Shown: one piece after another, positions 1 to 22,173 of the stretch
Layout of the letters: each line of letters begins with the position of its first letter
Position numbering within the stretch: the first letter of the stretch is position 1
Virus record (IMG/VR): IMGVR_UViG_3300034355_000029
Coordinates: 1 to 24,362 of that record
Length of the DNA stretch: 24,362 nucleotides
DNA from: a virus
Direction: 5' to 3' (one strand)
Position numbers and translations under genes: made by a program
The notes under the pieces: generated by a model
What the model was told of the DNA's origin: nothing
The model's database searches: none
The model's input: the letters and a program-made list of their open reading frames with translations, nothing else

Positions 1-3000
1 TAATAACTTACCAGAACCTATAGACAACATTGGAACTTTAGTAATAGGATCATTTCCAAAATTAAATAACGAAGGTGTTACTGGTTTAGAAATAGCTAAT
101 GGTTTGTAACCTTTGAAAGTTTCATAATCATCATGTTGTTCTGCTGTTAAAATTTCAGGCTTATCAGATAATCCTACCCAGCTTAACATACGATCCCAAA
201 TACCGAATTCAGGATTAGGGTATGTAGATTGGTCTAATACTTCTACGCCTGATAGCATTGGTGCTATCATATCCTTGCCCCAGTCGCTTACTAACTTGCC
301 ATTTAAGGATTTTGCAAGACTTGAAAAATCAATATTCTCTAATAACGCACTTGTTGTAGTACTATCTAGTACATTATCTGGCGCTAAATCATCAATGATC
401 TTATTTGATACCACAGGGTCTGAAAATACTTTTGGATAAAATTTTGATAATACATCTTTAGATGGAGAAGTTAAGAAGTTCAATACAGGCGGAACATCTG
501 CATTAGCGCCTGCATTTGGAATGATCCAATTCAAAGCTTTGTCAAACATCGAAGGAGGTGCTAATTTATTAAAATCTTGACCATTTTGTTGTAATACCCA
601 TTCAGCACCAAGTCTCTGAGCTTCTGTCATAGGCTTCCCAGATCTAACATACTGCATAAGATTATTTAATTGGCTTTGAGCCATCTTTGCGTCAAAATCT
701 GATAAACCAATTTTAGAATCATTTGGAAAATATCCAGTATTTAAAGGCTGGTTAGTAAGATTCTTTAGAGTAAACTGCTTCCCAATTGAACTACTAAAAT
801 CGCCGGCTAGCTCATCTACGCCAAAAGGAAAACTGTTAACAGGAATATTAGGCAATGCTGCCATTACATCCGGAATACTGTTGACAGCGATAGATTGAGC
901 ATACCCATCTGCAGTTAAACTTTTATAATAGTCTTGCATTGTAATTGCAACATCAACACCTGACTTATAAATCTTACTTGCAAGATCTGCTATTAGTTGA
1001 CTGCCATCTGTACCAAACTTTTTAATACCAGCAGGAGTTAAATTCTTAGTGATTGTATCCATTATACTGGTATTTGGCTTATTAGTACCAAATTTTGATA
1101 AATCAATTTTGACAGCTTTTGAGTAATCTACTAAATCTGATGTTTTAGGTTGCATCCAATCACTGACTTTAGATTTTCCAGTAGCTACATTTGAAATCAA
1201 TTTAGCTGTTAAACGGTTGGTGGTGTCTTCTGATACCTTTATTTTTGGTAATTCCCACTTGCCTGCTTTATTCAACTCTAACATAGGCTTATCTGTAGGA
1301 ATTCTCTCTGTTACGAGATCACCTGCAGCACTAGTAAGGCCTAAGACAGTCTCACGCATCTTTGTACCATTTGCTACAGCTTCTTCAGTGTAATTGTACA
1401 TTCCACTGTTTTTCTCTAATGCCCAACTACCTGTACCTAGTTGGCCGTCTTTAAGCAAACTGGCCATAACATTAGAAGGAATTTGGAACCCATTTAAGCC
1501 TACAGCACTTTTAGTAGATCCCGCAACAACTTTACTTAGAATATTAGAATCGACTAATCCTTGGTGAATTGCTTTGATATCATCATCTGAATATGGAGAT
1601 CCATCTGCTTTCAAAGGTAACTCAAAAGCTTTTTCTGTAGCTTCTAATATTTTTTGAACTTGAGCGTTAGGCTTAGGTTGTACTGCTGTGCCTAAATAAT
1701 TATTAGAAGCGTCAGGATGGTATGTATTGATTAAATCTAAAGCCTTTTGTCCGAAATAATCTTCCCAATAGTTTATAGAAGAATGACCAGATACACTTGA
1801 AGTTTTTGCAAGTTCTTTTTCATAATGAGTTGAACCTTTGGTGTTTTGCCAGAAAACTGCTGCATCTGCTAACGGATTTTCACTTTTTGCTAATAATTCA
1901 GAATATTGCTTATTTTGTAATCCTATTTTAGCTAATGCAGTGGCATTATTCATACCAGCTGGCCATACATATCCATCAATGCTGTCATTCAAATTGAATA
2001 ATGATGATGCACCTGTTCCTGCAAAAATGCCTAATGTACCTAAATTTGGTTTAAACTTTTTAAGCGTATTTTGGGATTCTTCATTATACGCACTTATCAC
2101 AGGAAAGGAAGCTTCTCTGACAGCATCCATTTGTGCAACTGTTGTGTTATCAAAGAATTGTGTATTCCCTAAATAGCCTGAATTTTCAATTAACTTATTT
2201 ACTTCTGATTGAGTTCTCCAAGGTCCTAAAGAACCTTTGGCAGGTTCAAAAGCTTTAGTTTTAGGATTTTGATTGAATACACGCAGTAAACCTTTACCTG
2301 TTTGCTTATCAGCAATAGAATCAAATCGTCTAAGGTTTAAATAGTTATGCGCTCTAATTGCAGCCATATCTTCTACTGACATAGAAGGATCATTAGGCAA
2401 CAGAATACCTGTACCAAACCAATTACTATCATCATTTAAGAGATTAGGAACTTGTCTAGCGCCATTATCACTTAATATGAACTTAGTAGTCATATCAGTA
2501 GGTTTTATATCCGAGTATCCGATAGCTTCGCCTTGCTTTCCAAAAGTATACCTTAACTGCTCCATAGTATACTGAGATGTGCCAGCTATAGGCGTTTCAG
2601 AAATATCAGGAGTCCAATCAGACATTTCTCCAGTATTATCCCAAGAGTATTTCCCTAGCGCTGTCCTAACTAATTGGCCTGCACCACTAATGCCCTTCAT
2701 CATTAATTTATTGAAAGCAGCTATATTATAACTCTTACCATTATAAGCAACAGAAGAATTTGAAGGCAATCCTGATGTAAATGCAGAACCTAATGAATCC
2801 ATTATAGGCGCATATTCAGATTTCCAGTAATGTCCTGTTGGATTTCCAGCAGCATCATAGGTCTTTAGTTTACCAATTGCATCAAAGAAACCTTTGTTAC
2901 TAGTCGTAGAATATTTTCCAGTTTCAATACCTTTCGCATAATCACCTAGATTAACACCTTCTGGCATTCCTTTCCCAAAAGTACCAGCTCTAATTTGATT
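1..3000 (-). other. C-terminal region of the tape measure protein, no recognised domain (open at window edge)
   Basis: About 1,000 residues (4690-5689) that look globular: mixed charge, many Asn, Pro and Trp, and no long repeats or membrane segments. Readable stretches include AAIRAHNYLNLRRFDSIADK (about 2390-2310). No enzyme motif was found. The frame continues past base 1, so its end and any tail-tip domain are not visible. Confidence 0.5.
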
Positions 3001-6000
3001 CAGTACATCAGCATACTCAGCAGTTTGCTTAGCAGGAATAATATACTCACCATTCGAAATTCTAATAACATTAGAATCAGAGGTACCTGTCCCTGAGCCT
3101 TGGAATATACCACCACCTATTTTTGCATCAGCGTTAGGCGTACCTGTTACACCACCTGTTTTAAAGATACTTGAAATAAATTTACTAAAATCTAATTTAT
3201 CTAAGCTTTTAAACCCAGCTGCAACCCAATCCCACACAGCGCCACCGACAACTTTAGCTTGGTTCACCCAACTACTAGGTTCGAAAGCTGGCATCTCAAA
3301 GTCTCTAAACCACTGGGTTAGGCTATCGCCTACTGTAGTGCCCATGTCGACAACACCACCCCATGTGAATGTGGCTAAATCTTTAATTTTACTTCCTACC
3401 GTTGCCGAAAGATCTGTAGCTGTTGACCACAACCAATTACCTTTTGTGGTGACAAAACTTGTAAGAGCTGTCCCAATATCCACAGCATTTGTCCAAACCC
3501 AATTAGCACCTTTGGCTAAGAATGCTTTAATATTCGCGCCAACATCTATTGCCTTTGCCCATGCCCAGTTTGCAGACTTATCAATAAACGCAGTAATACC
3601 CGCACCAAGGTCTGTTGCTGTTGTCCATGTCCAATTTGCAGCTTTGCTAAGATAAGTTTTTAAGCTTGTTCCAATGTCTGCAGTACCGTTCCAGATTATT
3701 TTACTTGTATCTGAGATGACCGCAGCAGTGCTGCTGACAACCTGCTTACCTACATCCAAAGTCCCAGTTATAAAGCTACCGGCCTTTGTTGTAAACCATG
3801 AACCAAGACTGCTGGAAATATCTGCAATACCTGACCATGTTATATTAGCCGCAGTGCCTAGCCAGCTTGTAACACTTTTACTTATATCTACAGTACTAGT
3901 CCATGCCCATTTTGCAATAGTTGGAACAGCCTTACTAACGCTATCACCTATATCTACTGCTGTTGACCATAACCAATTTCCTGCAGTTTTAAGATATGTA
4001 CCTACACTTACAGAAATATCTGCACCTGTATTCCAAACCCAATTACCTGCTTTCGATAAATAAGTTTTGAGACTTTCCCCTATCTCTGCAGCTCCAGACC
4101 AAACGATATTAGATGCAGTGCCTAGCCATGTTTTTAAATTGGCGCTAATATCAACAATTCCTGACCATGCAATTTTCCCAGTTTCAGCTAACGTTGAACC
4201 GACTGTATTTACAACTTGTGAACCGACATCTAAAGTACCAGTAATAAAACTACCGGCCTTTGTTGTAAACCACGCACTAAGGCTTGTAGAAATATCAGCA
4301 AGACCTGACCATGTAATATTGGCAGCAGTTCCTAACCAGTCGGTGACACTTTTACTTACATCTACAGCTTTTGTCCATGTCCAATTACCTGCAGTACCTA
4401 TCCAAGTACCAATGCTTGAACTAACATCTGCAATACCTGACCATGTTATATTTGCTGTCTCTTTTAACCATGCTGTAAGACTTGAGCTGATATCTACAAT
4501 ACCTGACCATGCGACTTTTCCAGTCTCAGCTAGTGTTGCTCCTGTATCAGTTAACACTTGCCCAGCATTTGTAAAGAGAGTTGATGCATTAGTACTGATC
4601 CAGCTCCCTAGTTTTGTTCCAATATCTACGGTGCCTGTCCAAAACTTGCTACTTGTTGTGTCTATCCAGTCACCGATTTTTGTACCTACTGCTACTGTCC
4701 CTGTCCAAAAGTCAGAAGCTTTTGTGGTAATCCAATCTCCAGCTTTCGTACCTAAAGCTACAGTACCTCCCCAAAAGTTATTGGCACTTGTACCTATCCA
4801 ATCCCCAACTTTTGTACCTAATGCTACAGTACCTGTCCAGAATTTACTAGTGGTTGTACCTATCCAATCTCCAGCTTTCGTACCTAAATCTATAGAGCCT
4901 TTCCAAAAGTTATTTGCGGCTGTTTCTATCCAAGTTTTTGCGCTGTCAGCCAAATCAATAGCACTTGTCCACGCCCATGTGATTCCTTTACCAATATCGG
5001 CACCAAGATTTACAGTACCTTTCCAAAGCGTTGCAGCGTTTGTAGTGACCCAAGTACCAATACTGGCGCTAATATCTACAGCAGTATTCCATGCCCATTT
5101 AGCATTATCTGTAAAGAACCCGCCAACCTTAGCGCCAACATCTACAATACCGGTCCATGCCCATTTAGTGGTGTCTGTAAAGAAATTCCCAACCTTCTTA
5201 CCGACATCTATAATACCATCCCATGCCCATTTAGTGGTGTCTGTAAAGAAATTCCCAACCTTTTTGCCAACATCTACAATACCGGTCCATACCCATTTAG
5301 TGGTGTCTGTAAAGAAATCCCCAACCTTCTTACCAACATCGATAACACCGTCCCATACTAATTTTGCATTTTTCGAAATAGAGTCTCCAAGTGCAGCACC
5401 AACATCAATAATGCCACTCCATGCCCATTTAGTGGTGTCTAAAAAGAAATCTCCAACCTTCTTACCGACATCTATAATGCCACTCCATGCCCACTTTCCA
5501 GTATCCGCAAAGAATGTACCGACCTTTTTACCGACATCTACAATACCATCCCATGCCCATTTAGTGGTATCTGAGAAGAAATCTCCAACCTTAGAGCCGA
5601 CATCTACAAGATTAGTCCATGCCCACTTTCTAGCGTCTGCAAAGAATGTACCAACTTTCGATCCAACATCAATTAAGCTATTCCATGCCCATTTAGCACT
5701 GTCTGTAAAGAATGCACCGACTTTAGTACTTACGTCAATTAAACCATTCCATGCCCACTTTCCTGCGTTTGCAAAGAATGCACCGACTTTAGTACTTACG
5801 TCAACAAGACCGCTCCATGCCCATTTAGTGGTATCTGAGAAGAAATCTTCAACCTTAGAACCGACATCAACGATACCATTCCAAGCCCACTTTGCATTCT
5901 TCGAAATGAAATCTCCAATTGCAGTACTAACATCAACGATGCCATTCCATGCCCATTTAGCACTGTCCGAAAAGAATGTACCGACTTTAGAGCCAACATC

Positions 6001-9000
6001 AATAAGACCGTTCCATGCCCATTTCCCGGTATCTGAAAAGAATTTAAGAACTTGCTTACCGACATCAACACCAACACCAGTTAAAGATGTAACAGGGGTA
6101 CTACCGCCTGCGGCTGCAGCTAACTTATCCCAAAGACTTGACCCTTTAGCTGCTGAATCAGATAAATCAGTTGCTGACTTATTTAATTTAAATGCAGAAG
6201 TATCTAGAATTTCGGTATCAATAGTTACATTGGTTTGAGTAGGTTTTTCTAAGACAGGGATATTAGAGAATAAAGGACTTCTTGTTTCTGCATTAGCAAT
6301 CTTATTTACCATACCACCTAATGCAAACTTAGGAAGTTTATCATTATTAATAGCATTAATCAAATTACCATATTTAGCAGTTGATTTAGCATTTATAACA
6401 AATTCACCATTGGATAATTTAGCCATTATCGAATCAGATGTACCAGTTCCCGGGCCTACTATCGGACCGCCCTCTGCAAAGCCAAAGAAATTACCAACAT
6501 CATTTTTAAAGAAACTGCCGACACTCTTAGAGAAATTACTAGTTGCAGCAGAAGCAGTAGTAACTCCTGGAATAGAATTAATACCCTTATCAAACATCTT
6601 AAAGATGCCTTCACCAAGGCCTGATGCCATGTTTTCAACAGCACCGCCTTTACCAAAGCCTAATGAATTAGTTACACCAGTAGAAAAAGAGTTAATAGTA
6701 GAGTCGATTAAATTTTGTTTGAGTTTAGAAGCAAAGGTTTGGAATGCATTTTGTCCACTATCTTTTTCGCCACGTAACAACCCTTTAAATGCGTCTGTAA
6801 AGCCAGTAGTTAATGTGCTAGAAAAGGCCTTTCCAGCGTCTCTTGCTGCTCTAATACTAGCCGCTGCAACTTCTGACTTGTCCCCCATATCCTTGATATC
6901 ATCGCCAAGACTAAGAATTTTACCTGCTGTATCAACAGTTGATTTACCTGCTTTTGCGTCAACAGCCATTTGATATTCTAAATCAGCTTGTTGATGGACT
7001 AATATGCCTGTTTTAACCTTATCTTCTTCTGTCATAAGATCAATATTTTCAGCGCTTAATCCGCTATATTCTCTAAGGAATGCTGTAATATTTCCTGTAG
7101 AAGCTTTACGGAATGCATCCATTTCTTTTAAGGTAGTAGGCATTGTGTTTGCAGCCAGACCTTTATTAGTACCTTCGACACCTGCAGATGCATTTAGTCT
7201 ATCTTGGAGAAACTGCTCAGTAGGTTTACCAGCTTTAATTGCAGCATCTATATCAGCTTTTAATTGATTAATTTTACCGGCAACAGTTAATGCATAATTC
7301 TTAAGCTCAGTATTCATACCTAAGAATGCGTCTTCAGTAAAGCCAGCTTCAGTTATTAAAGTCTTTTGTGTTTCACGACCTAATGCGCCACCTGCTTTAA
7401 CTAAATCAGCATTAGCAGTGTTTAATGTTTCTTGATTATTAGCCGCTATCTTATATGTTTCAATCCATAATTGAAACGCAGAAGCCATTTCATCTTTTAC
7501 TGTATTAGCTTTTAATGCAACAGTATTTAATGTTCCATCAACTTTAGTTACTGGGGCAGATGTATCAGCAACAGGAGCGCCCTTAAGATACCCATACACA
7601 TCCCTAAATCTGGAAATTTGATTTTGGGTCTCTGTATTATTATAGCTATTGCCAAAGCCTACATTATAACCGCCTGCAGTCATTGCAAGATCTTCGTTAT
7701 TTCTTTTCAATCCTGACTTATAGTATTTAGCACCTGCAAATATATTTTCACGAGCATCTGTATAGTCATTAAGCTTATGCCATCTAGGCACTAATTGCAT
7801 AACACCAATAGCACCTTTATCACTTACAGCATCTTTCTTTAATCTGCTTTCAACAATTCCTAATGCTTTTAAAGCTATCCAATCAACATTGTATTTAGTT
7901 GCCGCTTCTTTGAAGATTGCATCATATGTTGAATTATTTAGTTCTTTGGCACTGAATCCTTCTGGGACTGCCATGCTTGACGCTTTTGGCATCGGTGCCA
8001 GCTCTGACTGCGGAATAGCTGTTTGTGGGGACTCTGCGGTACCGCCTGTGGCCGGCTTTCCTGCAATTAGGTCAGTGACAGCCCCACGAAATTCTGAGGC
8101 ACCTGACTTGATATCTGCGCCAGCTGTGAGAAGCATTTCAGAGAAACTTTGAGGTGGTGTCAATTTGCCAGCAATGTTTAAATTAGCAAACTCTTTACCA
8201 AATCGCGATTCCATTCCAGATAGGATATCCTTAATCGGCATACCACCTTTAAGTTTATCTGTTGCAAAATTATACATTTCACCTGACATAGAGTCCATCT
8301 TTTGCAATGCTTCAGCAAAATAAATTGTATCTGCACGATTCTTAAGCTCTACCTTTTGTGTAGTTGGTAATGCAGCATATTGAGATGCATTGATATTTAA
8401 ATCAGGTAATCCCGATTTGATTTTCTCAAATGAAGAAGTAAACCCGTCTGTTATAGTCTCCTTAAGGCGCGTCTTCATATCTACGAAGAAACCTAAGAAT
8501 GACGTATGAGATTTTAGATTTTCAAAGCTAGTTGCAAGTGCTTCAGTTGAAGAAGTCATATCAGACTCTTTCATAGCTTCTTCTAATGCAGTTTTATATT
8601 GTGTAGCAGTACCTGATAATTGTGCCCATAATTTAGAGGGCAACCCTGCCATCAACGCTGTAGACATATTAGAGCCAAAAACTTCATTTACTGTAGAAGT
8701 TTTCGAAGTAAGATCTGCAAAACCTGCTTTGATCTCTTCTCTGCGTTTCTCAGCTTTAGCTAATTCTATGCTAAGTGTTTTAATTTTACCAGTATCATTA
8801 CCTGCTAGTTTAATATCAGAGTTTAGATTAAAGATTTGCTTATCAACACTATCAATTTCTTTCAACAAGTCTACACTGACTGCCCTAAACTTACGAGGAG
8901 CATCTAGCCCAAATTCTGGGAATTGAATCTCTCTGTGCGCTATCGCAGCTTCTGCTCGAGCTAATTCATCTTCATAATTATTTATTAATCCTTGTGGATC

Positions 9001-12000
9001 TCCACCTGCAATTTTATATTTACCATCTCTAAGATCTTGAATAGCATTCTTAAGTCTAGCAATGTTAGTAGCCGCCTTATCAGCGTCGGCTCTTCCAAAA
9101 TCTTTAAACACTTGTTGATAGTTAATGCCTGATGTTTCAATATCTTTTAAACCTTGCAAAGCTTTGGCAAATGGATCAGTATCTTGAAATCTTTTAGTAT
9201 CGGCAGCAAGTTGAACCATCCATAAATCTATATTCTCTAAATCGTATTTTCGCTCTTCAAGACGTTTATTATAATTATCAGCTGCCGTTGCATTTTCTCT
9301 TTCAACCTTAATCCATTCAGCAGTATCTTTTAAAAATGGATTAGGTTTATCTTCAGGTTTGGTTAAAGTAGCTTCTATATTTGCCCTAGCTGCTACTACT
9401 TTTAATGCAAACCTATTCAACGATTCTGCAGTAACCTTATCATCAATAGGGATAATAAGAGGCTCTTTAAGTGCAGGTGGTAAAAATGAACTCAAATCTC
9501 TTGTAGTAGCCTTAGGTAAAAGAGAAAATTTATTAGGCGCCCCTAACATATTTAATGCAGGGATATCATATATTGAAGGCGTTTTGATAAATGCAGGGTT
9601 TACAGATTTAAATGGAACTTGCTCAGGAGCATTTACTTCTTTTATATTTAAATCACGAGGAGGACTTTGGACACCTCTTTGCACATTAGTCCTTAAATCA
9701 TTACCCACAAGCGCACGACTAATTCTTTCAGGTGATGTAGTCATCATCTGCCCGTAAGTAGCCTGCTTGATATCAAGAGTTGCTTTTTCATTTACAAAAC
9801 GTAATGCTTCTACACCTCTAATTCCAAGCTTCTCTATATTTTTGGCTAAAGCTACTGGACCAATTGTTGCAGTATCAGCTGCCATTTCTTGTGCAAGTTT
9901 AGCTTCTCTTTCAACAGCTCTTAATGTAGATAAAGTTGCGTTTCGATCTTTAGTACTGAACGTATGATCGAGATGGTCTTTTAATCTTTTAGCTTCTAAC
10001 CCTAATTGTTGCAATCTTGAAATTGCAGCATTATTTTCAGATTCAGGTAATATATCATTAGCGGTTATACTTACATTAGCATCTTTTAAATTACCTACTA
10101 ATGAACTTACAAGATTAGTGTATATTTGTTCATCTGCAAGCGCTTTTGCAATTTCTTTTGCACGTGATACGAATTTGCCTAAGGCATCTACTGATTTTTC
10201 AAAATAAGAGATATCAACTTTTAAATCTGGACTGCCTAAAAGATTCTGCATAGACATAGAACTCAGATCTTCATTTATCTTTGTTGTATATTTATATACA
10301 TCATTACTTGCAACTGCAAGACTCATTTTGAAATTTTCATCAAGACCGGGCAATTCACCTAATTTAACAGCTTCATCCGCCATTGCCTTAAGTTCAAAAA
10401 TACGTGCTTTTACTGCATCTTGCTCAGGTGTCAAGTACGCAGTACTCATAGTCATTTCACGTGCAGAAATTGTTCCGCTTGCTTTTGAACCTTTCCGCGT
10501 AGGTAGAGATAATGAGTCTGCGCCACCAAACACTTCATCAAGACGAGTTGACCGCTCCACTGTAAAATTCTTAAAAAGATCTACAGTTTTCTGCATATTG
10601 AACCTAGATGCTCGCATTGCTTCTGCAGCTTTCTTATTTAATACTTCAGCTGCTTTCTCTGCATCTTTTTGTAAAGCTGATTTATCACCAGAACCGCCTT
10701 TATCCTCAGCATTCTTTAAAGCTTCCATAGAAGATTTAAATGTTTCTTGAGCCTTGGTGTATCTCTCAAATATCTGAGGATCTTCAATATTAGACTCATC
10801 AATTAGCCTTGCATCATACTTAAGAGAAATTCCATATTGAGTAGCAGTGTCAGCTTCACTTTTTAGTAATCCAGTCTTTTTATCTTTTGCTGCTGAATGG
10901 ATCCCAAGTATCTTTTTAACTTTTTCGTATATATCATCCAAGGCTCCCATTAATGTGCCGTTACTACCCATTAAATACATTGCAAGAATGCCGCCTGTAA
11001 GCGCAAATATATTAAAGCCTAAAAATAATCTTGGAATAAATTTTGCAATAGTGATAAAGAATGAAGTAATTTTAGGGATAACCATTGAACTGAACATCAT
11101 GGCTAATCCAGCGCCAATACCTGCACCTGTTTCTCCACCAATCTTATTTCCTACATAAGCACCTGCCGCCCCTGCTGCAACGAGAGTGGTAGCGGTTGCT
11201 CCAGCACCTGCAATACCTTTAGTTAATGCGCCCTTAGCACCTAGCAATGCTCTATTAGGATTTGCCATATAATATTGCATGTAGCTTGCTTGGTTCATTG
11301 GCAATCCGCCATAACTTCCCATGCGGTTAAAATCTTTGCGTCTATCTGCTGGAGTCATTCCTGCATATTGCGCTTCAAGATCTTTTTGCAATAATTGCTT
11401 CTTTATGGCAGCATTACTAGTATATAAACTTCTATCAACATTAGCAGGAGTCAATCCTTGTGAAATCTTTGTATCTAATACGTTATTAGCAAGTTCTTTT
11501 GCTGCATTAAATCTACTACGTTGTACACCAACAACACCTGCTGCAATTGCTGGAATTAATCCACCAAAGAGTGTAGCTGCTACGTCCACGTGAGAACCAC
11601 CCAGTTCGAAAGAACCCATAAAGGCTTTTCTTCCGCGTTCACCGGCCTTCTTAAACTCGTCAGTACTTTCTAAGAATGGTATACGAAATAAAACTGCAGC
11701 GCCAACACTGACTATGGCTGCCCGCCAAGTAGATATAAATTTCAGAGTATTAACCATCAGGGCTAAAGCTTTGGTCATCAATGTTATTCTATTTGTTAGA
11801 CCAGTAAGGCCTCCCATTGCGCCTGCTACTTCTGCTAACCATAGGGATACAAACTTACCCCCCATTGTTTCTCTTAAAATAGCTGTTGCACGTGCCATTG
11901 CATATAATTCAGCTGTATATAGTTTAAGTCTTGGAACAAATTTGTCTGGACTAGTTCTGGCAAGTATTTCACCTTTTTCTTTTACAGTATCAAATACTTT

Positions 12001-15000
12001 TGTTAAATTAGGAAACTTTTGGAATCCTTGCTGCAATACAGTTCCTGCTCCGCTTGTAATAGGCGCTGAGCTTTCTTGTAAGAATCTAGCAAACCCTCTA
12101 ACTGCTGTTTGGCCTTTAGTTTCTGGACCTTTACTTGGATTAGGCTCAAAAGCGCTTCTGAACCTATCAAAACGAGATGTTCGTTCTTCTTTATAAGTTC
12201 TTTTTCTATTTCTAAGATCTGCAGCAACTGCTTCTGCCATAGTTCTATCGGACATGCCTTGTTTTAATTCAGAGCTATATTTACTGATATTAGCGCCTAA
12301 GTTCTTGACTATACTACTACCACCGATCTTACTTGCTAGCTTATCTAGAATAGGAGATGCTTGACGCATCGTATCCCACAACGCACTTACATAGAGACCT
12401 GTATAAGACTTCATGTTTAAGCCAACAGACTTTAATCCTGATGTAGCTGCAATACCTTGAAATGCAAGTAATTGATTACCTAAAGCTGCTAATGCTGCTC
12501 TAAATAATGTAATAGGGCTTAATGCTAATTGCAAATTAATCAGAGGTTTATATAGAGCTGTTAACGCCCCAGCTAGTAGTGCAATACCGCCAATAGCTAC
12601 TTGGCTAGGTGTGAGACTGTCCCACATGCCTTTTAAACTTGTTGGTAAGATATCTGAAATATTTTGAATAAGATTTTTAAGACCATTAGTAATAGATAGT
12701 GATAATCTGTCATATCCGTATCCTACTTCATCTGCAATCTTTTGTAATACAGTATGGCCTGTACCACGACCTGTCATTTCTCTGAAACTAGGAACAGGAA
12801 TTCTATGATACGGTTTTACAGTTTCAGCACGAGGTTTGTTTATTAAGTCTGTAGGTGGCCCTTGTGGAGCTTCTTGAATACCTCTGTAAAATGTCTCACC
12901 ATTCAATGAAGGTGTCATTGTATCAGCGCTTGACATATTAGAAAATGTTAATGCACCAAGTGCTGCTACAGCTAACATAATCCATTTTACAATAGGATGC
13001 CCAAACGCGGATGCAAGAAGTGGTGATACCGCTGCAAATCTTGTTGTTGCATAGTTATAGGCACTTTCAATAGAATTATAAAAAGCTCCTAATGAAGTTG
13101 CGGGTATTCCTGTTGGTCCAAAAAGTAATCTAGAAAAGAATGTTCCCGTACCAGTGCCAGTAAATGCAGAAGCAAAACGTTCTCTCATACCTGCAAATAA
13201 ATTAGCAAGTATAGAAGGATCTCTTACCATGCTGCCTAGCATTCCAAACATTCTTACAAGATTGCCTCTTATAGTACCCTCTGGAAATAGCATAGATAAT
13301 TCGCGCATTACCGGATATATAATTTTAGATCTAATTGCATCAATACCGCTTGGCCCCATTAACGCTAATGCAATTAAACCGCCTTGCATATATGCATGCC
13401 CTAAAGGACTATCATAGAATACTTGATCAAACATCCCTAATTGATCAGCAACCAATGCGACCATTGCACTAGAACTTACTACATTGCCTGAACTAAAGAA
13501 TGAGGATGACGCACGACTCATTGCAGTTTGTGGTCTAGACTGGTATCCAACTCCAGGAGGTAATGGTGGCCCCATTCCTACGTGTGCAGGGTTAGTCATT
13601 AAACGTGTCATATTGTGGCCAGCAACAGCAGTATTTGCCATTGTTCCACCAAAGAATGAACCAATAGAGCCTGTTACTTTGAATATTCTAGAAATTTGCT
13701 TTTCAAATATTCCTAATGTAGATAACATTTTAAGAGCGGGTCCGCCAAATAGTAATGCACCAATCAAGCCACCAGCTGTACTAAACTGAAATAGATCCAG
13801 TATCCCATATACCATGCTCGCAACAGTACCTACAATTGGGATACTCTTCAAGAAGCCTTCAACAGCACCGCCAATGAATCCTAACAGATTAGATATAATT
13901 GCAGGCAAGTCCGCTAATATTCCTAATAAAACTGTTCCAGCTACTTTGCCTGCCACTTTGCCAGCTTCTACAGAGAAGCTAACACCAAATCTTACATCAG
14001 CAAATACGTTAGCAAATGCTAGCCCTGCAGCAATAGCGGCTCTTAAGAATAAGCCACCAAGCATAGAAGTAATTCTATTTTCTGGCAGTAATAGCGATAC
14101 AAAAGCTAATCCAAAAACATTAGCAAAAGCTGTTAATGAATGTTTTAATTCTTCTGGCAACCCATCAAATAAGTTTTTAGCAAAGTCTTTAGCTATTTCA
14201 ATAGATTTTCTAAAATTGCCTGTTGAGATGCTGATTACAAAATCACTACGTAAGGTATCTGCGACTATGCTTCTAATTTTTCTAAAGCTACTTACAACAC
14301 CGTCACCAATACTTGACAATACATTTGCAGCCATTGGTGAAATAGTTTTAACAGCTTCCAACATTTTCTGGAGATTGCTAGAAATATCTACTGTAGAAAT
14401 TCTTTTAAATATGCTTATAACAACTTCATAAATTGCTTGGAATACACGAATAGTATTTCCTGCAAATTGTTTCAAACCACCGTCAGTATTATTTTTAAGA
14501 CTTCTAACTGTACTGATTATTGAATCAATGGTATCTGTCCACCATGAATTACCGATAACAGCATCATATATTTTAAAGAATACTTCTATTACATTTTCAC
14601 CAAATTTAGAAATAGCGCCAAAGGCCTTTTCTAATTTATTGGTTTGATTCTCAATACCGTCAAATAATTTATTTATACTCTTAGCTAAATCTTTTGCGCT
14701 GAAGCTTATATTAGTTGAACTCTCAAGATCTTTTAGTTTACCACGAATTCCTTTGATAAAGTTTCCAAAAAGTTTTTCAATGAATCTAAGACCTTGAAGA
14801 AGTCTATTGTAAACGCCAGCTGTGTCAAAAGCTTCATTAATAGAGCTTAAAGTACTTTTAATTGTAACAAATGCTTGGTATAGAGTCTTAGCTAATACTT
14901 TTAGGATTGTACCAGTGCCTTGCAAACTCTTAAATACTTTACCAATATTCTTAGCAAAAGTGTCACTCTCAAATTTAATTACTAATTCATTTTGTAAAGA

Positions 15001-17067
15001 TCTAAAGTAACTCTTAATTCCAGCTAAAGCTTTATTGGTGTCTTGTGTTACACCGCTAAACATTTTTGCAAACTTAGTTGTTACACCAAATTTATTAAAT
15101 GCTTTTTGAATCTTATCAAATACTATAATTGATTTGTTATAAAATTCGTCTAATTGTATAACAACAATATTAAATACTTTTCTAAAAGATAACGAAGGGC
15201 CTTTCATTTGGAATAGAGAAGCAAAACTATCTCTTAAACGCCCAGTAATAGTTTGTGAACGATTTGTAATGTAATCTAAGAAAGACCAGTCAGTCAATTC
15301 TTTTGTTTTATCAGAAAGATAGTTAAAGCCTTCTGATAATTTAGAAGCAATAAAATAGAATATATCATTTAATATTTTAGCAACTTTTCTATTATCAGAG
15401 GATCTGGCAATAAAACTGCTAAACAAATCGCTTACTACAAGGCCTTTTGCAATTCTAGAAAACATACTAGAAAGCGCATCAAAAAGATACACTCCCATTC
15501 TACCAATAACACGAGGAATTTCTGCACGAAAGTCAAGAATATCTGACATATATGTTTTTAAGAGATATCCTGTTTTCTTTGCAATTAAAACTTCCCCAAG
15601 CATTTGAGGTAACATTGCAAATACAGATTTTAAATTCTCTTTAAGTACTCTACCGCTTGAAAGCATTCTAGAGCCTAATACACTCAGTTGTGATTTATAC
15701 ACAAGGAAAGTATTTTTAAATGCTGTAATAATCATAGGAGAGTCATCTACAGACCAAATACCCTTACCTACACCTCTTTTACCAAGTGTACGTAATACAG
15801 CACCATATGCTTCATATGAGCGTACTGCAGTTTTAATATATGCATCAAAGATATATTTGGCTTCGCCAATCTCTTTCTTAACAAAAGTTGAAATGCCTAA
15901 TGCGCCAAGTAATAATTTAACTTTTAAGACAATTTTCTCAAAACCAAAAATGATTGGTTCTGCAAAATCTTTCATTCTCTCTTTTATGTTAGTTATTACT
16001 CTACCAAAATTGACACCCATTTCAAAAGCATTTTTAGAAACTTCACTTAATGCATGAATAGCATCTGAAAGAAATTCCCCAAAGAAGTCTGATAATCCTA
16101 ACCCTTTTTCAAATTCAGATGCAATAGACTTAATCATTTCGCCTAATTTACTAACACCCTGCGCCATTGTAGGTTTCATTACAGCAAATTCTTTATTAAT
16201 TTGCTTAGCTTGATCTAACAAGGCTTTCATTACAACTGCTGTTGTTACTTGTCCTGTGGAGGCTAATTCTCTTAGTTTACCTAAACTCACATCTAAATTA
16301 TCAGCGATAGCCTTAGCAATACGAGGAGTTTGTTCCATCACTGAATTTAACTCTTCACCGCGTAATGCACCAGCAGATAATCCTTGGTTTAATTGGAATA
16401 GTGCAGCATTAGCACTATCAGTAGATGCACCAGACACTGCTACAGCTTTCTGAATAGTTTCAGTAACACCTAGTAAAGTCTCCATAGAGACTCTAGTGTC
16501 TTTCATTGCTCTGCCAAAGCCTGTAAATACAGTAGTTGTCGATGCGTATAGCGTTCTTGTACGCAATGCTACATCATTAAGGCTAAGCATCGTTGCTGCA
16601 AGTTGTTCAGAACGTCCTACAACATTAGCAATTTGGTTTTCTAAATCTTGAAAATCAGAAGACACTTTAGTGAGTCCTGCAAAGGCTCCGCCAAACGCAA
16701 CTGCACCAAATGCAGCTTTTAAATTACCAGCAAGACCTACTGCGAGATCATTAATACTTCTTAATGAATCACCAGTTTTATCTAAAGATTTGTTTACTTT
16801 TAAATCACTTGATTTATTTAAAAATGAACCAGTAAATGTTTTATCTGTCTTAGTTAACGTATCTTTAAAATTACTAGATTCTTTATTTAATTTACTAATA
16901 CTTTCTGTAGGCTTTTTACCAATTTCTTTTGATAAAGAACCTTCAGTTAGCGCTTTTTCTATATTATTTGTGTTCTGAGATATCTTGGCCAGAGATCTTG
17001 CTAAAGCATCAATACTACCCTGTGCCTTGTCAACTTTAGCCTCGATATCAATTACGATACCTGTCAT
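1..17067 (-). CDS. Giant tail tape measure protein with embedded lytic transglycosylase (partial, C-terminus beyond window)
   Basis: This protein sets tail length, occupies the tail lumen and probably aids genome entry. The frame opens at ATG 17067, with GGAG seven bases upstream, and stays open to base 1: at least 5,689 codons. I translated many sampled stretches in this frame and found no stop. Layout by residue: tape-measure domain about 95-290 (GEELNSVMEQ at about 236-246); amphipathic helices to about 970; membrane-like and Gly/Ala-rich segments about 970-2050; charged coiled-coil stretches about 2050-2790; Ala/Pro linker and SLT-type transglycosylase about 3048-3150, probable catalytic Glu 3073; GTGTSDS/SNGE modules at 3538-3569 and 4657-4689 flanking about 42 Trp-rich 22-residue repeats (3666-4590); then a C-terminal region with no recognised domain. 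It lies just after the chaperones and gp10-like gene, the normal siphovirus position. Most tape proteins are 700-2,500 residues. Processing and the true C-terminus cannot be seen. Confidence 0.93.
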   Translation of the reverse strand, partial: MTGIVIDIEAKVDKAQGSIDALARSLAKISQNTNNIEKALTEGSLSKEIGKKPTESISKLNKESSNFKDTLTKTDKTFTGSFLNKSSDLKVNKSLDKTGDSLRSINDLAVGLAGNLKAAFGAVAFGGAFAGLTKVSSDFQDLENQIANVVGRSEQLAATMLSLNDVALRTRTLYASTTTVFTGFGRAMKDTRVSMETLLGVTETIQKAVAVSGASTDSANAALFQLNQGLSAGALRGEELNSVMEQTPRIAKAIADNLDVSLGKLRELASTGQVTTAVVMKALLDQAKQINKEFAVMKPTMAQGVSKLGEMIKSIASEFEKGLGLSDFFGEFLSDAIHALSEVSKNAFEMGVNFGRVITNIKERMKDFAEPIIFGFEKIVLKVKLLLGALGISTFVKKEIGEAKYIFDAYIKTAVRSYEAYGAVLRTLGKRGVGKGIWSVDDSPMIITAFKNTFLVYKSQLSVLGSRMLSSGRVLKENLKSVFAMLPQMLGEVLIAKKTGYLLKTYMSDILDFRAEIPRVIGRMGVYLFDALSSMFSRIAKGLVVSDLFSSFIARSSDNRKVAKILNDIFYFIASKLSEGFNYLSDKTKELTDWSFLDYITNRSQTITGRLRDSFASLFQMKGPSLSFRKVFNIVVIQLDEFYNKSIIVFDKIQKAFNKFGVTTKFAKMFSGVTQDTNKALAGIKSYFRSLQNELVIKFESDTFAKNIGKVFKSLQGTGTILKVLAKTLYQAFVTIKSTLSSINEAFDTAGVYNRLLQGLRFIEKLFGNFIKGIRGKLKDLESSTNISFSAKDLAKSINKLFDGIENQTNKLEKAFGAISKFGENVIEVFFKIYDAVIGNSWWTDTIDSIISTVRSLKNNTDGGLKQFAGNTIRVFQAIYEVVISIFKRISTVDISSNLQKMLEAVKTISPMAANVLSSIGDGVVSSFRKIRSIVADTLRSDFVISISTGNFRKSIEIAKDFAKNLFDGLPEELKHSLTAFANVFGLAFVSLLLPENRITSMLGGLFLRAAIAAGLAFANVFADVRFGVSFSVEAGKVAGKVAGTVLLGILADLPAIISNLLGFIGGAVEGFLKSIPIVGTVASMVYGILDLFQFSTAGGLIGALLFGGPALKMLSTLGIFEKQISRIFKVTGSIGSFFGGTMANTAVAGHNMTRLMTNPAHVGMGPPLPPGVGYQSRPQTAMSRASSSFFSSGNVVSSSAMVALVADQLGMFDQVFYDSPLGHAYMQGGLIALALMGPSGIDAIRSKIIYPVMRELSMLFPEGTIRGNLVRMFGMLGSMVRDPSILANLFAGMRERFASAFTGTGTGTFFSRLLFGPTGIPATSLGAFYNSIESAYNYATTRFAAVSPLLASAFGHPIVKWIMLAVAALGALTFSNMSSADTMTPSLNGETFYRGIQEAPQGPPTDLINKPRAETVKPYHRIPVPSFREMTGRGTGHTVLQKIADEVGYGYDRLSLSITNGLKNLIQNISDILPTSLKGMWDSLTPSQVAIGGIALLAGALTALYKPLINLQLALSPITLFRAALAALGNQLLAFQGIAATSGLKSVGLNMKSYTGLYVSALWDTMRQASPILDKLASKIGGSSIVKNLGANISKYSSELKQGMSDRTMAEAVAADLRNRKRTYKEERTSRFDRFRSAFEPNPSKGPETKGQTAVRGFARFLQESSAPITSGAGTVLQQGFQKFPNLTKVFDTVKEKGEILARTSPDKFVPRLKLYTAELYAMARATAILRETMGGKFVSLWLAEVAGAMGGLTGLTNRITLMTKALALMVNTLKFISTWRAAIVSVGAAVLFRIPFLESTDEFKKAGERGRKAFMGSFELGGSHVDVAATLFGGLIPAIAAGVVGVQRSRFNAAKELANNVLDTKISQGLTPANVDRSLYTSNAAIKKQLLQKDLEAQYAGMTPADRRKDFNRMGSYGGLPMNQASYMQYYMANPNRALLGAKGALTKGIAGAGATATTLVAAGAAGAYVGNKIGGETGAGIGAGLAMMFSSMVIPKITSFFITIAKFIPRLFLGFNIFALTGGILAMYLMGSNGTLMGALDDIYEKVKKILGIHSAAKDKKTGLLKSEADTATQYGISLKYDARLIDESNIEDPQIFERYTKAQETFKSSMEALKNAEDKGGSGDKSALQKDAEKAAEVLNKKAAEAMRASRFNMQKTVDLFKNFTVERSTRLDEVFGGADSLSLPTRKGSKASGTISAREMTMSTAYLTPEQDAVKARIFELKAMADEAVKLGELPGLDENFKMSLAVASNDVYKYTTKINEDLSSMSMQNLLGSPDLKVDISYFEKSVDALGKFVSRAKEIAKALADEQIYTNLVSSLVGNLKDANVSITANDILPESENNAAISRLQQLGLEAKRLKDHLDHTFSTKDRNATLSTLRAVEREAKLAQEMAADTATIGPVALAKNIEKLGIRGVEALRFVNEKATLDIKQATYGQMMTTSPERISRALVGNDLRTNVQRGVQSPPRDLNIKEVNAPEQVPFKSVNPAFIKTPSIYDIPALNMLGAPNKFSLLPKATTRDLSSFLPPALKEPLIIPIDDKVTAESLNRFALKVVAARANIEATLTKPEDKPNPFLKDTAEWIKVERENATAADNYNKRLEERKYDLENIDLWMVQLAADTKRFQDTDPFAKALQGLKDIETSGINYQQVFKDFGRADADKAATNIARLKNAIQDLRDGKYKIAGGDPQGLINNYEDELARAEAAIAHREIQFPEFGLDAPRKFRAVSVDLLKEIDSVDKQIFNLNSDIKLAGNDTGKIKTLSIELAKAEKRREEIKAGFADLTSKTSTVNEVFGSNMSTALMAGLPSKLWAQLSGTATQYKTALEEAMKESDMTSSTEALATSFENLKSHTSFLGFFVDMKTRLKETITDGFTSSFEKIKSGLPDLNINASQYAALPTTQKVELKNRADTIYFAEALQKMDSMSGEMYNFATDKLKGGMPIKDILSGMESRFGKEFANLNIAGKLTPPQSFSEMLLTAGADIKSGASEFRGAVTDLIAGKPATGGTAESPQTAIPQSELAPMPKASSMAVPEGFSAKELNNSTYDAIFKEAATKYNVDWIALKALGIVESRLKKDAVSDKGAIGVMQLVPRWHKLNDYTDARENIFAGAKYYKSGLKRNNEDLAMTAGGYNVGFGNSYNNTETQNQISRFRDVYGYLKGAPVADTSAPVTKVDGTLNTVALKANTVKDEMASAFQLWIETYKIAANNQETLNTANADLVKAGGALGRETQKTLITEAGFTEDAFLGMNTELKNYALTVAGKINQLKADIDAAIKAGKPTEQFLQDRLNASAGVEGTNKGLAANTMPTTLKEMDAFRKASTGNITAFLREYSGLSAENIDLMTEEDKVKTGILVHQQADLEYQMAVDAKAGKSTVDTAGKILSLGDDIKDMGDKSEVAAASIRAARDAGKAFSSTLTTGFTDAFKGLLRGEKDSGQNAFQTFASKLKQNLIDSTINSFSTGVTNSLGFGKGGAVENMASGLGEGIFKMFDKGINSIPGVTTASAATSNFSKSVGSFFKNDVGNFFGFAEGGPIVGPGTGTSDSIMAKLSNGEFVINAKSTAKYGNLINAINNDKLPKFALGGMVNKIANAETRSPLFSNIPVLEKPTQTNVTIDTEILDTSAFKLNKSATDLSDSAAKGSSLWDKLAAAAGGSTPVTSLTGVGVDVGKQVLKFFSDTGKWAWNGLIDVGSKVGTFFSDSAKWAWNGIVDVSTAIGDFISKNAKWAWNGIVDVGSKVEDFFSDTTKWAWSGLVDVSTKVGAFFANAGKWAWNGLIDVSTKVGAFFTDSAKWAWNSLIDVGSKVGTFFADARKWAWTNLVDVGSKVGDFFSDTTKWAWDGIVDVGKKVGTFFADTGKWAWSGIIDVGKKVGDFFLDTTKWAWSGIIDVGAALGDSISKNAKLVWDGVIDVGKKVGDFFTDTTKWVWTGIVDVGKKVGNFFTDTTKWAWDGIIDVGKKVGNFFTDTTKWAWTGIVDVGAKVGGFFTDNAKWAWNTAVDISASIGTWVTTNAATLWKGTVNLGADIGKGITWAWTSAIDLADSAKTWIETAANNFWKGSIDLGTKAGDWIGTTTSKFWTGTVALGTKVGDWIGTSANNFWGGTVALGTKAGDWITTKASDFWTGTVAVGTKIGDWIDTTSSKFWTGTVDIGTKLGSWISTNASTLFTNAGQVLTDTGATLAETGKVAWSGIVDISSSLTAWLKETANITWSGIADVSSSIGTWIGTAGNWTWTKAVDVSKSVTDWLGTAANITWSGLADISTSLSAWFTTKAGSFITGTLDVGSQVVNTVGSTLAETGKIAWSGIVDISANLKTWLGTASNIVWSGAAEIGESLKTYLSKAGNWVWNTGADISVSVGTYLKTAGNWLWSTAVDIGDSVSKAVPTIAKWAWTSTVDISKSVTSWLGTAANITWSGIADISSSLGSWFTTKAGSFITGTLDVGKQVVSSTAAVISDTSKIIWNGTADIGTSLKTYLSKAANWTWTTATDLGAGITAFIDKSANWAWAKAIDVGANIKAFLAKGANWVWTNAVDIGTALTSFVTTKGNWLWSTATDLSATVGSKIKDLATFTWGGVVDMGTTVGDSLTQWFRDFEMPAFEPSSWVNQAKVVGGAVWDWVAAGFKSLDKLDFSKFISSIFKTGGVTGTPNADAKIGGGIFQGSGTGTSDSNVIRISNGEYIIPAKQTAEYADVLNQIRAGTFGKGMPEGVNLGDYAKGIETGKYSTTSNKGFFDAIGKLKTYDAAGNPTGHYWKSEYAPIMDSLGSAFTSGLPSNSSVAYNGKSYNIAAFNKLMMKGISGAGQLVRTALGKYSWDNTGEMSDWTPDISETPIAGTSQYTMEQLRYTFGKQGEAIGYSDIKPTDMTTKFILSDNGARQVPNLLNDDSNWFGTGILLPNDPSMSVEDMAAIRAHNYLNLRRFDSIADKQTGKGLLRVFNQNPKTKAFEPAKGSLGPWRTQSEVNKLIENSGYLGNTQFFDNTTVAQMDAVREASFPVISAYNEESQNTLKKFKPNLGTLGIFAGTGASSLFNLNDSIDGYVWPAGMNNATALAKIGLQNKQYSELLAKSENPLADAAVFWQNTKGSTHYEKELAKTSSVSGHSSINYWEDYFGQKALDLINTYHPDASNNYLGTAVQPKPNAQVQKILEATEKAFELPLKADGSPYSDDDIKAIHQGLVDSNILSKVVAGSTKSAVGLNGFQIPSNVMASLLKDGQLGTGSWALEKNSGMYNYTEEAVANGTKMRETVLGLTSAAGDLVTERIPTDKPMLELNKAGKWELPKIKVSEDTTNRLTAKLISNVATGKSKVSDWMQPKTSDLVDYSKAVKIDLSKFGTNKPNTSIMDTITKNLTPAGIKKFGTDGSQLIADLASKIYKSGVDVAITMQDYYKSLTADGYAQSIAVNSIPDVMAALPNIPVNSFPFGVDELAGDFSSSIGKQFTLKNLTNQPLNTGYFPNDSKIGLSDFDAKMAQSQLNNLMQYVRSGKPMTEAQRLGAEWVLQQNGQDFNKLAPPSMFDKALNWIIPNAGANADVPPVLNFLTSPSKDVLSKFYPKVFSDPVVSNKIIDDLAPDNVLDSTTTSALLENIDFSSLAKSLNGKLVSDWGKDMIAPMLSGVEVLDQSTYPNPEFGIWDRMLSWVGLSDKPEILTAEQHDDYETFKGYKPLAISKPVTPSLFNFGNDPITKVPMLSIGSGKLL
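3001..3099 (-). repeat. Second GTGTSDS...SNGE module of the tape measure protein
   Basis: Residues 4657-4689 read GSGTGTSDSNVIRISNGEY and then IIPAKQTAEYADVL. It is a diverged copy of the module at 6361-6456, keeping GTGTSDS and SNGEx(V/I)I, an Ala-Lys pair and a following Tyr. It starts about 65 residues after the last Trp-rich repeat. Confidence 0.7.
3298..6072 (-). repeat. Array of about 42 tandem 22-residue (66-bp) Trp-rich coding repeats
   Basis: Residues about 3666-4590 consist of head-to-tail 22-residue units. The common unit begins D-V-G, has KVG at 5-7, an aromatic pair (FF or W-I) at 9-10, and KWAW or a related W-containing block at about 15-18, followed by G and two hydrophobic residues. 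I counted about 42 units, with one short unit (18 residues) and two of about 26. The first 15 (about 5080-6072) are the KWAW type; the later ones drift to TGTV, NITWSG and NWxW types. Period 66 is directly visible, for example CCATGC starting at 5155 and 5221 and CCATAC at 5287. Trp/Phe-spaced tandem repeats are known in other tape proteins, typically with 11-residue units or multiples. Confidence 0.93.
6361..6456 (-). repeat. First GTGTSDS...SNGE module of the tape measure protein
   Basis: Residues 3538-3569 read GPGTGTSDSIMAKLSNGEF and then VINAKSTAKYGNL. This Gly-rich turn plus SNGE(F/Y)VI pattern recurs near the C-terminal part of many tape measure proteins, and its function is not established. 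A second, diverged copy lies at 3001-3099, and the two copies bracket the Trp-rich repeat array. Confidence 0.7.
7600..7925 (-). other. Lytic transglycosylase (SLT/goose-lysozyme-like) domain within the tape measure protein
   Basis: Residues about 3048-3150 carry the order of motifs typical of soluble lytic transglycosylases: VDWIALKALGIVESRL with the probable catalytic Glu at residue 3073, then SDKGAIGVMQLVP, then ENIFAGAKYY, and finally the AGGYNVGFGN block that corresponds to the family's AYNxG motif. Such domains cleave the glycan backbone of peptidoglycan and are known inside several tape measure proteins, where they open the wall for DNA entry. It is preceded by an Ala/Pro-rich linker (about 7930-8110). 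All the expected motifs are present, so it looks active. Confidence 0.87.
8700..10900 (-). other. Charged, probable coiled-coil region of the tape measure protein
   Basis: Residues about 2056-2790 are rich in Lys, Glu, Ala and Leu with heptad-like spacing, for example SALQKDAEKAAEVLNKKAAE (from about 10680) and NYNKRLEERKY (about 9275). Long helical rods of this type are the expected tape-measuring material in siphovirus tails. No enzymatic motif is visible. The assignment is by composition only. Confidence 0.55.
10921..14160 (-). other. Hydrophobic, membrane-segment-rich part of the tape measure protein
   Basis: Several stretches here translate as long uncharged segments, for example VAIGGIALLAGALTALY (from about 12600), GGLIGALLFGG (about 13770) and IFALTGGILA (about 11010), with Gly/Ala-rich stretches such as AGAGATATTLVAAGAAG (about 11220). 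They fall at residues about 970-2050. Tape measure proteins commonly carry such segments, thought to help form a channel in the host inner membrane during genome delivery. The number of true transmembrane helices cannot be fixed by eye. Confidence 0.6.
16200..16785 (-). other. N-terminal tape-measure family domain of the giant tail protein
   Basis: Residues about 95-290 match the tape-measure N-terminal family (TIGR02675 type) by eye. The best signature is LRGEELNSVMEQTPRIAKAI at residues 235-254, followed by a short linker and a second helical segment (LGKLRELASTGQVTTAVV). The family is known from Gram-negative siphoviruses and prophages, and this block is what identifies the giant frame as a tape measure protein and not another large structural protein. 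It is preceded by about 90 charged residues rich in Lys, Asn and Ser. Confidence 0.85.
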
Positions 17068-18355: not shown

Positions 18356-18991
18356 TTACGCGGCAGCGCCTACAGTGTATGCACCGCGAATATCAGATTG
18401 TACTGTGATTGTCAATTTAGCAGACAATGCATCAGTCAAACTTGGAGTTACTTCTAACGCTTCAAATTTACCTAAGAAGTAGTAAGAAGAGTTACCTACT
18501 GAACCAATAGAGTTGTCATCACCGGTAGCGTTAGCAACTGATAAGTAACCTTCTGGTTCTAATGCTAATAAAGAGAATCTGAATAGATAAATATTACCAT
18601 CATTAATATATATTTTTGATTTAGCAAAGGTACCAGCAGTAGCGCCTTCAATAGATAAAAATGAATCAGCCCATAAGCCTGGAACATAGTTCAAGGTGAT
18701 TTCCATTGTAGGAGAGTCTGCTTGACCTTGAATTTGTTTAGAAGTTTTAGCACCATATTCAGGTACTTTAACGACGTTAGCTGGTGTACCAATAGCTGGA
18801 AATTCTTTGATGTGCGTAATGCGAATAAATTGACCTGCAGCAGGTGTACCAACATCAGTAGGTCCGGCTTCTGTGGCAAAATGTGTAACTGGGCCATCAA
18901 CAATAGCTGTAAGGTTTGCGGTAGTTTTTGCCATAGAACTCACAGACAAATCTGTGAACATTGCAGCGCCAATAGAAGAAATGTGTGCCAT
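18356..18991 (-). CDS. Major tail tube protein
   Basis: A 211-residue protein that polymerises into the hollow tail. Ser/Thr/Gly/Ala-rich and beta-prone throughout, with an N-terminal arm (MAHISSIGAAMFTDL) and a C-terminal segment SYYFLGKFEALEVTPSL that then runs into a DALSAKLTITVQS strand, as in lambda gpV-like tube subunits. It lies directly after the tail terminator gene and before the chaperones, the conserved order. A clear AAAGGAA sits seven bases before the ATG. The family is called by size, composition and position; tube proteins keep little sequence identity. Confidence 0.82.
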   Translation of the reverse strand: MAHISSIGAAMFTDLSVSSMAKTTANLTAIVDGPVTHFATEAGPTDVGTPAAGQFIRITHIKEFPAIGTPANVVKVPEYGAKTSKQIQGQADSPTMEITLNYVPGLWADSFLSIEGATAGTFAKSKIYINDGNIYLFRFSLLALEPEGYLSVANATGDDNSIGSVGNSSYYFLGKFEALEVTPSLTDALSAKLTITVQSDIRGAYTVGAAA

Positions 18992-19009: not shown

Positions 19010-19420
19010 TTAAGTAGAACTTCCGAAGAAGTTGAAAGTAATTGTGTAGGTACTTTTGTGAATAACTGGTAAAGCTTTATCAGGGCCTACATGCGTAAGA
19101 CTGCTTATACCAAATTGTGTAACGCCAGAACCTGTAGTCTTAGATTTGTTTACTAAGTATTTATCTAAGACATCTGCTATTACCATAGCACGTCTTGTGC
19201 CAGAGCCTGCAGCTATAAAAATATCAATTATGAGAATGCCTGCTAATGAGTATCTATTTATAGGTTTTCCACTAGGTATCACTGATACACGAATAAATTC
19301 ATCATTAGTAGTATTCATAACTACAAAATTTGTCGGGAATGTTTTTATATTTTCAGCTTTCCATCCATTAGACGAAAATACTGAGTAAACGTCTTTTTCT
19401 AATAATTCATATTTGCCCAT
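19010..19420 (-). CDS. Tail terminator (tail completion) protein
   Basis: A 136-residue protein that would cap the tail tube and offer the surface that joins the head. The alternating helix and strand pattern, the segment SLAGILIIDIFIAAGSGTRR and the following MVIADVLDKYL helix are typical of gpU/DUF4128-type terminators. The C-terminus, rich in Thr and Phe, ends STYTITFNFFGSST. GAGGT lies six bases before the ATG. It stands between the probable stopper and the tail tube gene, as in most siphoviruses. The call is by pattern and position. Confidence 0.75.
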   Translation of the reverse strand: MGKYELLEKDVYSVFSSNGWKAENIKTFPTNFVVMNTTNDEFIRVSVIPSGKPINRYSLAGILIIDIFIAAGSGTRRAMVIADVLDKYLVNKSKTTGSGVTQFGISSLTHVGPDKALPVIHKSTYTITFNFFGSST

Positions 19421-22160: not shown

Positions 22161-22173
22161 TTTATGTTTCCTT

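Follow-up and report, generated by a model that had tools for sequence, protein, structure and literature searches.

A gene on the minus strand of a 24,362-base virus record stretch (hereafter, the window) encodes 5,895 residues in 17,688 bp including its stop codon, more than the 5,002 residues (15,009 bp) of the P23-45 tape measure protein (TMP; PMC10770324), which is the longest that we found in print. Judged from its sequence, this product is itself a TMP. The single frame described in the earlier note, which runs from the ATG at 17067 to base 1 (5,689 codons, zero internal stops), is still open at the window edge, and the stop that the note had sought to the left of base 1 was found in three other IMG/VR records, G002 (3300042338_000192), G003 (3300044731_000425) and G021 (3300042382_000033), in which the frame continues for another 206 residues before a stop codon. 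These records show 0 differences from the 17,067 bases of the window. Two parts of the earlier interpretation are supported, namely that the product is a tape measure and that it exceeds the longest TMP found in print, and the figure of about 5,000 residues given there for the largest tape protein, that of P74-26, fits the 5,002 of P23-45. No TMP longer than 5,002 residues is named in the text available from the open-licence literature covered.

In our judgment, this is probably the TMP of a long-tailed siphovirus, the C-terminal cassette of which would lie in the tail tube and count toward its length, with a predicted tail of ~0.9 μm. Within what could be searched, a protein of a familiar type reaches a record length here. 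The largest TMP found is raised from 5,002 to 5,895 residues and the site of the extra length can be pointed out, namely two large inserts between copies of a repeated motif (Table 1). The earlier note mentions neither the three motif copies nor the replaced cassette.

Table 1. Features of the tape measure gene and of its neighbors (window positions; residues are those of the 5,895-residue protein)
Feature	Position	Strand	Basis
Tape measure gene (5,689 of its 5,895 residues in the window)	1..17067	-	Frame and completing records
TMP_3 domain, residues 132-320	16108..16674	-	Pfam, 5.8e-48
Hydrophobic segment cluster, residues 976-1093	13789..14142	-	Kyte-Doolittle
SLT lytic transglycosylase domain, residues 3052-3148	7624..7914	-	Pfam, 1.8e-14
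First motif copy, residues 3516-3584	6316..6522	-	Related stretches in JBD30 and Douge tape measures
Replaced cassette (window part), residues ~3650-5780	1..6120	-	Other sequence in G001
22-residue (66-bp) repeat array, residues 3666-4590, ~42 unit lengths	3298..6072	-	Repeat analysis
Second motif copy, residues 4635-4703	2959..3165	-	Motif scan
Second insert, to residue 5767, ~1,060 residues	1..2958	-	Second inter-motif gap
Gene resembling tail completion/Neck1 proteins	17129-17422	-	phrog_169, 1.4e-10
Gene weakly like minor tail protein T	17419-17709	-	Located, like the previous small gene, between tube and tape measure genes
Major tail (tube) protein	18356..18991	-	phrog_158, 7e-08
Tail terminator	19010..19420	-	phrog_179, 1.8e-05
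Head-tail adaptor	19767..20249	-	phrog_477, 3.7e-17
Major head protein (query for relatives)	20260..21501	-	40 and 48% identical to nearest annotated head proteins
Head scaffolding protein	21522..22211	-	phrog_206, 5.1e-09

Tape Measure Domains and Neighboring Genes

The N-terminal tape measure domain proposed in the earlier note was recovered by Pfam as TMP_3, a domain common to JBD30 and other solved tape measures, and 21 among the 25 PHROG matches listed are to tape measure families. Besides the cluster given in Table 1, hydropathy analysis (Kyte-Doolittle scale, 19-residue window, threshold of 1.6) yielded hydrophobic segments at residues 372-397, 1358-1377, 1492-1510, 1827-1849 and 2014-2033; by hydropathy alone, segments for channel formation are thus present. 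Hydrophobic residues show a periodicity of 4 and 7 positions within residues 1-2000, weakly beyond, and also one of 11 (z = 3.6) within residues 1-1000. The C-terminal ~40 residues are similar in all 11 C-termini compared, and by analogy with JBD30 this end could anchor in the hub. In a relative with a 74% identical TMP N-terminus (L135, also G031), another sequence, without a Pfam match, seemingly occupies the site of the SLT domain (residues ~2690-2870 of its frame). An RNA polymerase fused within the TMP was also considered and rejected, as the 5,895 residues contain no DxDxD sequence and no Pfam match to such an enzyme.

The operon position claimed in the earlier note also proved correct, with tail genes upstream of the TMP gene and presumed tail-tip genes downstream. 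The head genes come first, followed by those for the adaptor, the terminator and the tail tube, then by the small tail genes and the tape measure gene, and finally by genes of 276, 165 and 1,744 residues, after which G002 has one of 612 residues. The 1,744-residue protein combines a weak Phage-tail_3 match (0.00077) with an S74 chaperone domain. A short way downstream of the tail genes, locus L084 (20677-21345) has a PhoH-like gene. No tRNA was found in the window, nor any Rfam family that reached its gathering score.

If the protein works as described for JBD30 and Douge, the C-terminal ends of three chains would be fixed in the hub at the tail tip, and the tube protein would polymerize around the chains up to their N-terminal end. 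At infection, the chains would be expelled, the SLT domain would cut peptidoglycan and the hydrophobic parts would help make the DNA channel. The cassette would lie in the tube and count toward tail length, and its exchange would change both this length and the sequence meeting the host envelope. The SLT domain and the cassette may nevertheless not span the tube.

Repeated C-terminal Motif and Two Large Inserts

The C-terminal TMP motif (GTGTSDS..LSNGEFVIN) occurs three times, at residues 3516-3584, 4635-4703 and 5768-5833. Many relatives also repeat the motif: of 26 family frames, 17 carry three copies, four carry two, four carry one and one carries none (duplicates of the same phage are included in these counts, and the frame without a copy, as well as that of G026, is cut by a contig end). 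What differs is the spacing: the motif starts lie 121-339 residues apart in most family frames, up to 630 in G028/G029, 717 in G027, and 530 and 1,134 in G022/G023, and they are 1,119 and 1,133 residues apart in the 5,895-residue TMP. With 3,515 residues, the part ahead of the first motif has a size usual among the long relatives (2,837-3,868 residues), and the record length is therefore due to the two inserts.

The first insert contains an array of 22-residue repeats, the units of which have diverged (71-79% matches). It matches weakly two PHROGs of unknown function, 37712 (2.3e-07) and 34247 (5.4e-05), and an HMM of the repeat found 32 units above threshold in the 5,895-residue TMP and one in G022/G023. 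The array is Leu-poor, with 11.7% Gly, 13.3% Thr and less than 1% Glu. Its aromatic residues peak at lags 22 (z = 22.7) and 44 and are depleted at lags 11 (z = -4.6), 18 and 33; hence, Trp/Phe residues at the 11- or 18-residue intervals described for TP901-1 were not observed in the array, nor was an aromatic signal at lag 11 detected in the TMP core. The AlphaFold2 model of the array is all-beta (pLDDT of 75) and matched no PDB entry at E ≤ 0.001 (best, 0.25). This fold is doubtful because AlphaFold2 is reported to produce confident but false beta-solenoid models of repeat sequences (PMC11795689).

The second insert showed no Pfam or PHROG match over window positions 1-3000 and no convincing PDB match; a hit to the ThsA macro domain (E of 0.011 over 58 residues) was judged to be due to chance. 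Its AlphaFold2 model, built from four sequences, is unusable (pLDDT of 31). Relatives of this insert were found only in this phage group, and among 43 stretches of a genome collection that matched a pattern none was confirmed as a relative.

Replacement of the C-terminal Cassette

Comparison of G002 with G001 (78,740 bp), the record from which we judge the genome to be of ~79 kb, shows a replaced block between two nearly identical phages. With aligned pieces of less than 300 bases left out, both are 98.2-100% identical over G002 positions 10,324-66,324 except for 35,855-42,244, which corresponds to TMP residues ~3,650-5,780, i.e., from shortly past the first motif into the third (the left edge lies ~65 residues past the first motif and the right edge within the third). 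Inside this region just two short alignments were found, 83% over 488 bases and 75% over 363. The G001 cassette carries instead a different array, with a period of 105 bases (35 residues), and a second insert that is 45% identical. The ends of G001 overlap by 58 bases within its array; if they belong together, its TMP has at least ~5,362 residues, with an uncertain number of repeats. A further version was found in G099, the TMP of which is 99% identical over residues 1-600; from there to residue 3,500, identity is mostly 92-100% but falls to 64-89% in patches. Past that residue, its identity drops to 43% and below, and a third array version, with 558 residues between motifs 1 and 2, precedes the contig end.

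Such sequence comparisons indicate that mosaic exchange is common among the relatives. Among 11 pairs compared along the TMP, G004/G010 are most divergent at residues 3,100-3,300 and G018/G019 from 2,700 on, G016/G017 and G007/G005 show the reverse pattern, with a more similar C-terminal end, and G005/G013 and G004/G018 differ all along the protein. G013/G012, G007/G014, G022/G023, G028/G029 and G016/G020 (cut) hardly differ anywhere along the protein. A clean replacement of the block from motif to motif was seen in one record pair only, G001/G002.

The motif copies flanking the large blocks would provide matched sequence at which recombination could swap a block, and a swap at these sites would spare the anchor and the N-terminal part. 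Recombination may use the motif in this way. We propose tentatively, as a possibility that we rate rather low, that the C-terminal third is a swappable cassette between repeated anchor motifs, of which one species would hold several versions of differing length and sequence, such that tail length and the envelope-meeting part would be exchanged in one recombination step. If so, strains of one species should have tails differing by tens of nanometers. In the tape measure literature, consulted mostly at abstract level and not for cassette exchange as such, no description of this build was found.

It is likewise possible, though doubtful, that the cassette is swapped mainly because of its contact with host-envelope or defense proteins at injection, with tail length as a by-product. 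Where both records have sequence, G001 and G002 differ strongly in two places, the cassette and a second variable region (G002 ~5,946-10,324; the first 5.9 kb are 94.9% identical), the stretch of a gene with modules of the chitin-binding type (CBM_5_12) that may encode a host-contact protein. In line with this alternative, the second insert, common to G022, G023 and L087 at 80% identity overall, is 94% identical to that of G022 over the first 590 residues of the alignment, then 44% over 298 and 96% over the last 110, with a like pattern in G023 and L087. The TMP core of G022 shows just 24-28% identity in the two longest blocks that align. Moreover, the accessible text on the SNIPE defense reports that it binds tape measures and that a change in the lambda TMP alters inner-membrane protein use (PMC13190303). 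However, the sites concerned, at TMP residues 100-150 and 304 in that text, lie nearer the N-terminus, outside the C-terminal third. In G002 (L114), the second variable region encodes a 1,091-residue protein with three CBM_5_12 stretches, located between a terminase-like gene and the gene that precedes the MuF-polymerase gene (see below).

Predicted Tail Length

The ratio of tail length to TMP length is known for several phages. In the published descriptions, as far as available, JBD30 has a 180 nm tail and a TMP of 1,158 aa (0.155 nm per residue), a trimer that fills the tail and of which 33 C-terminal residues are resolved in the baseplate core; Douge has a 269.6 nm tube for 1,699 aa (0.159 nm); TP901-1 has 118 nm for ~810 measuring residues (PMC5099701); and P23-45/P74-26 have 875 nm, the upper end of the range in the Douge paper, for 5,002 aa (~0.175 nm). 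Hotorobo has 540 nm for 3,327 aa (0.162 nm; PMC4982279). Applied to 5,895 residues, the ratios of measured phages predict 859-1,031 nm. The 875 nm value is, we assume, that of P74-26.

The flat 0.15 nm per residue of the earlier note may fail for the last 40% of the TMP, which consists largely of the 22-residue repeat array, lacking a helix-like composition, and of the second insert of ~1,060 residues. What speaks against a helical tape is the Gly/Thr-rich composition of the array and its all-beta, though doubtful, model. It is conceivable, if rather unlikely in our estimate, that the tail is measured solely by the residues that precede the first motif (~3,516), with the cassette compact at the tail tip or carried as cargo, and that the tail is of ~0.55 μm; the estimate is ~545 nm if only those residues count and ~770 nm if only the array is compact. 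Such a division would agree with an array whose composition and predicted structure are unlike a helical tape, and with a first motif whose start, at 2,838-3,869 in the long relatives, leaves a preceding part of ordinary size here. On the other hand, Douge has 0.159 nm per residue over its whole TMP despite internal motif copies, and there the sequence after the first motif thus seems to count. Furthermore, deletions in the repeat region of TP901-1 are reported, in the part of the study available, to shorten the tail proportionally (PMC5099701).

Alternatively, the three motifs could be processing sites at which the protein is cut into several chains, leaving a measuring chain shorter than the gene. 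We regard this as improbable: the cleavage proposed for JBD30 in the accessible text, at residue 1066, does fall within the stretch that aligns to the motif (1010-1082), but this cleavage is a predicted one that pertains to ejection, not assembly, and the tube length of Douge fits an uncut TMP. The two near-identical genomes that differ in the cassette constitute a natural experiment. Their comparison could reveal whether each TMP residue adds to the length of the tail, which regions lie within the tube, and why about a fifth of a phage genome would be devoted to one gene.

Comparison With Other Tape Measures

A search of 101 related virus records returned a TMP match in 88 (28/30, 9/20, 48/48 and 3/3 by set), none longer than 5,895 residues, many of the frames being cut by contig ends. 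These records, mostly longer contigs, came from loci identified through the head protein, the TMP domain, the array, the second insert or the stretch at motif 1; 48 of the at least 80 loci listed were taken into the record search, along with 50 others from two sets. Outside this phage and its close kin, the longest frames span 4,751 and 4,742 residues from stop to stop.

Among described phages, P23-45/P74-26 also combine a giant TMP with a long tail, in a genome of 84 kb as against ~79 kb here. The P23-45 protein, however, is 893 residues shorter, has a metallopeptidase domain where the present TMP has the SLT domain and contains a polymerase, and the C-terminal motif was not found in it. JBD30 gp46 (1,158 aa) shares the TMP_3 domain and the C-terminal motif, but with one clear copy and in one fifth of the length. 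Douge gp16 (1,699 aa), from a mycobacteriophage, carries the motif twice (963 and 1411), repeated as here, and is a trimer anchored in the hub according to the available account, but its copies are ~450 residues apart versus ~1,100 here; Douge is absent from the relatives found by head protein. The Gordonia phages Hotorobo, Woes and Monty have tape measure genes that are reported to be among the longest, 9,984 bp, and tails of ~540 nm (PMC4982279), compared to 17,688 bp for the gene described here. The nearest annotated major head proteins are those of DSS3_VP1 (Naomviridae) and EBPR siphovirus 1, 40 and 48% identical, respectively, and both phages show a similar gene order, but their TMPs, of 1,655 and 2,141 residues, are far below 5,895.

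Integrity of the Reading Frame

At the composition of the window, a stop is expected in ~6% of codons, and the chance of 5,895 stop-free codons has a log10 of about -161; a run of this length by chance is out of the question. The third-position G+C is 0.19-0.30 in each 500-codon block of the whole frame. In comparisons with relatives, dN is below dS in every segment covered (residues 1-3663 and 4690-5689, on either side of the repeat array); against G031, dS is saturated and only the direction of this ratio is used.

The concern in the earlier note about joined frames or a hidden stop has become very unlikely to be justified because identical records carry other dataset numbers, with samples that are possibly related, and all of them are short-read style metagenomes that agree at the level of the record. 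An assembly artifact, whether an in silico junction of two genes or a repeat that was collapsed or expanded, has a probability close to nil: the frame does contain tandem repeats, and the contigs of some relatives (G001, L130 and L225) end inside their own arrays, but three records are base-for-base alike, a fourth (3300042292_000241) is 100% identical in protein over residues 1357-4824, with the repeat array within, and the divergence among array units allows reads to place them. Assembly error was rejected on the basis of the identical records. An open frame of 723 codons on the opposite (plus) strand, at window positions 4067-6238, overlies the 22-residue repeat array and is most likely a by-product of the repeats rather than a gene.

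A Head Protein Joined to an RNA Polymerase

The gene at the right edge of the window (22533-24362, minus strand) encodes the end of a 1,775-residue protein, the full gene of which is found at L114:14114-19441. In this protein, a Mu F-like minor head domain (residues 146-250) is joined to a T7-type RNA polymerase, with sequences like polymerase motifs at 1009, 1077 and 1669, presumably those named A, B and C. The same genome encodes a separate T7-type RNA polymerase of 739 residues. The fusion suggests that the polymerase would travel inside the virion head, like that of N4, yet attached to a head protein. MuF-enzyme fusions were described in work on polyvalent proteins (PMC5512222), and in the accessible part of that paper and related literature no description of a MuF-polymerase fusion was met.

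Homologous genes occur in the two phages with the nearest annotated head proteins. The 1,463-residue "minor head protein" of DSS3_VP1 is homologous to the MuF-polymerase protein and retains such motifs. In EBPR siphovirus 1 (L137, 7772-13145), the homologous head-polymerase gene is seemingly split: the alignment of gp47 covers just residues 19-1082 and stops close to polymerase motif B, and downstream of gp47 come a gene for an HNH endonuclease and another ORF, an arrangement that could correspond to an intron or to a split gene.
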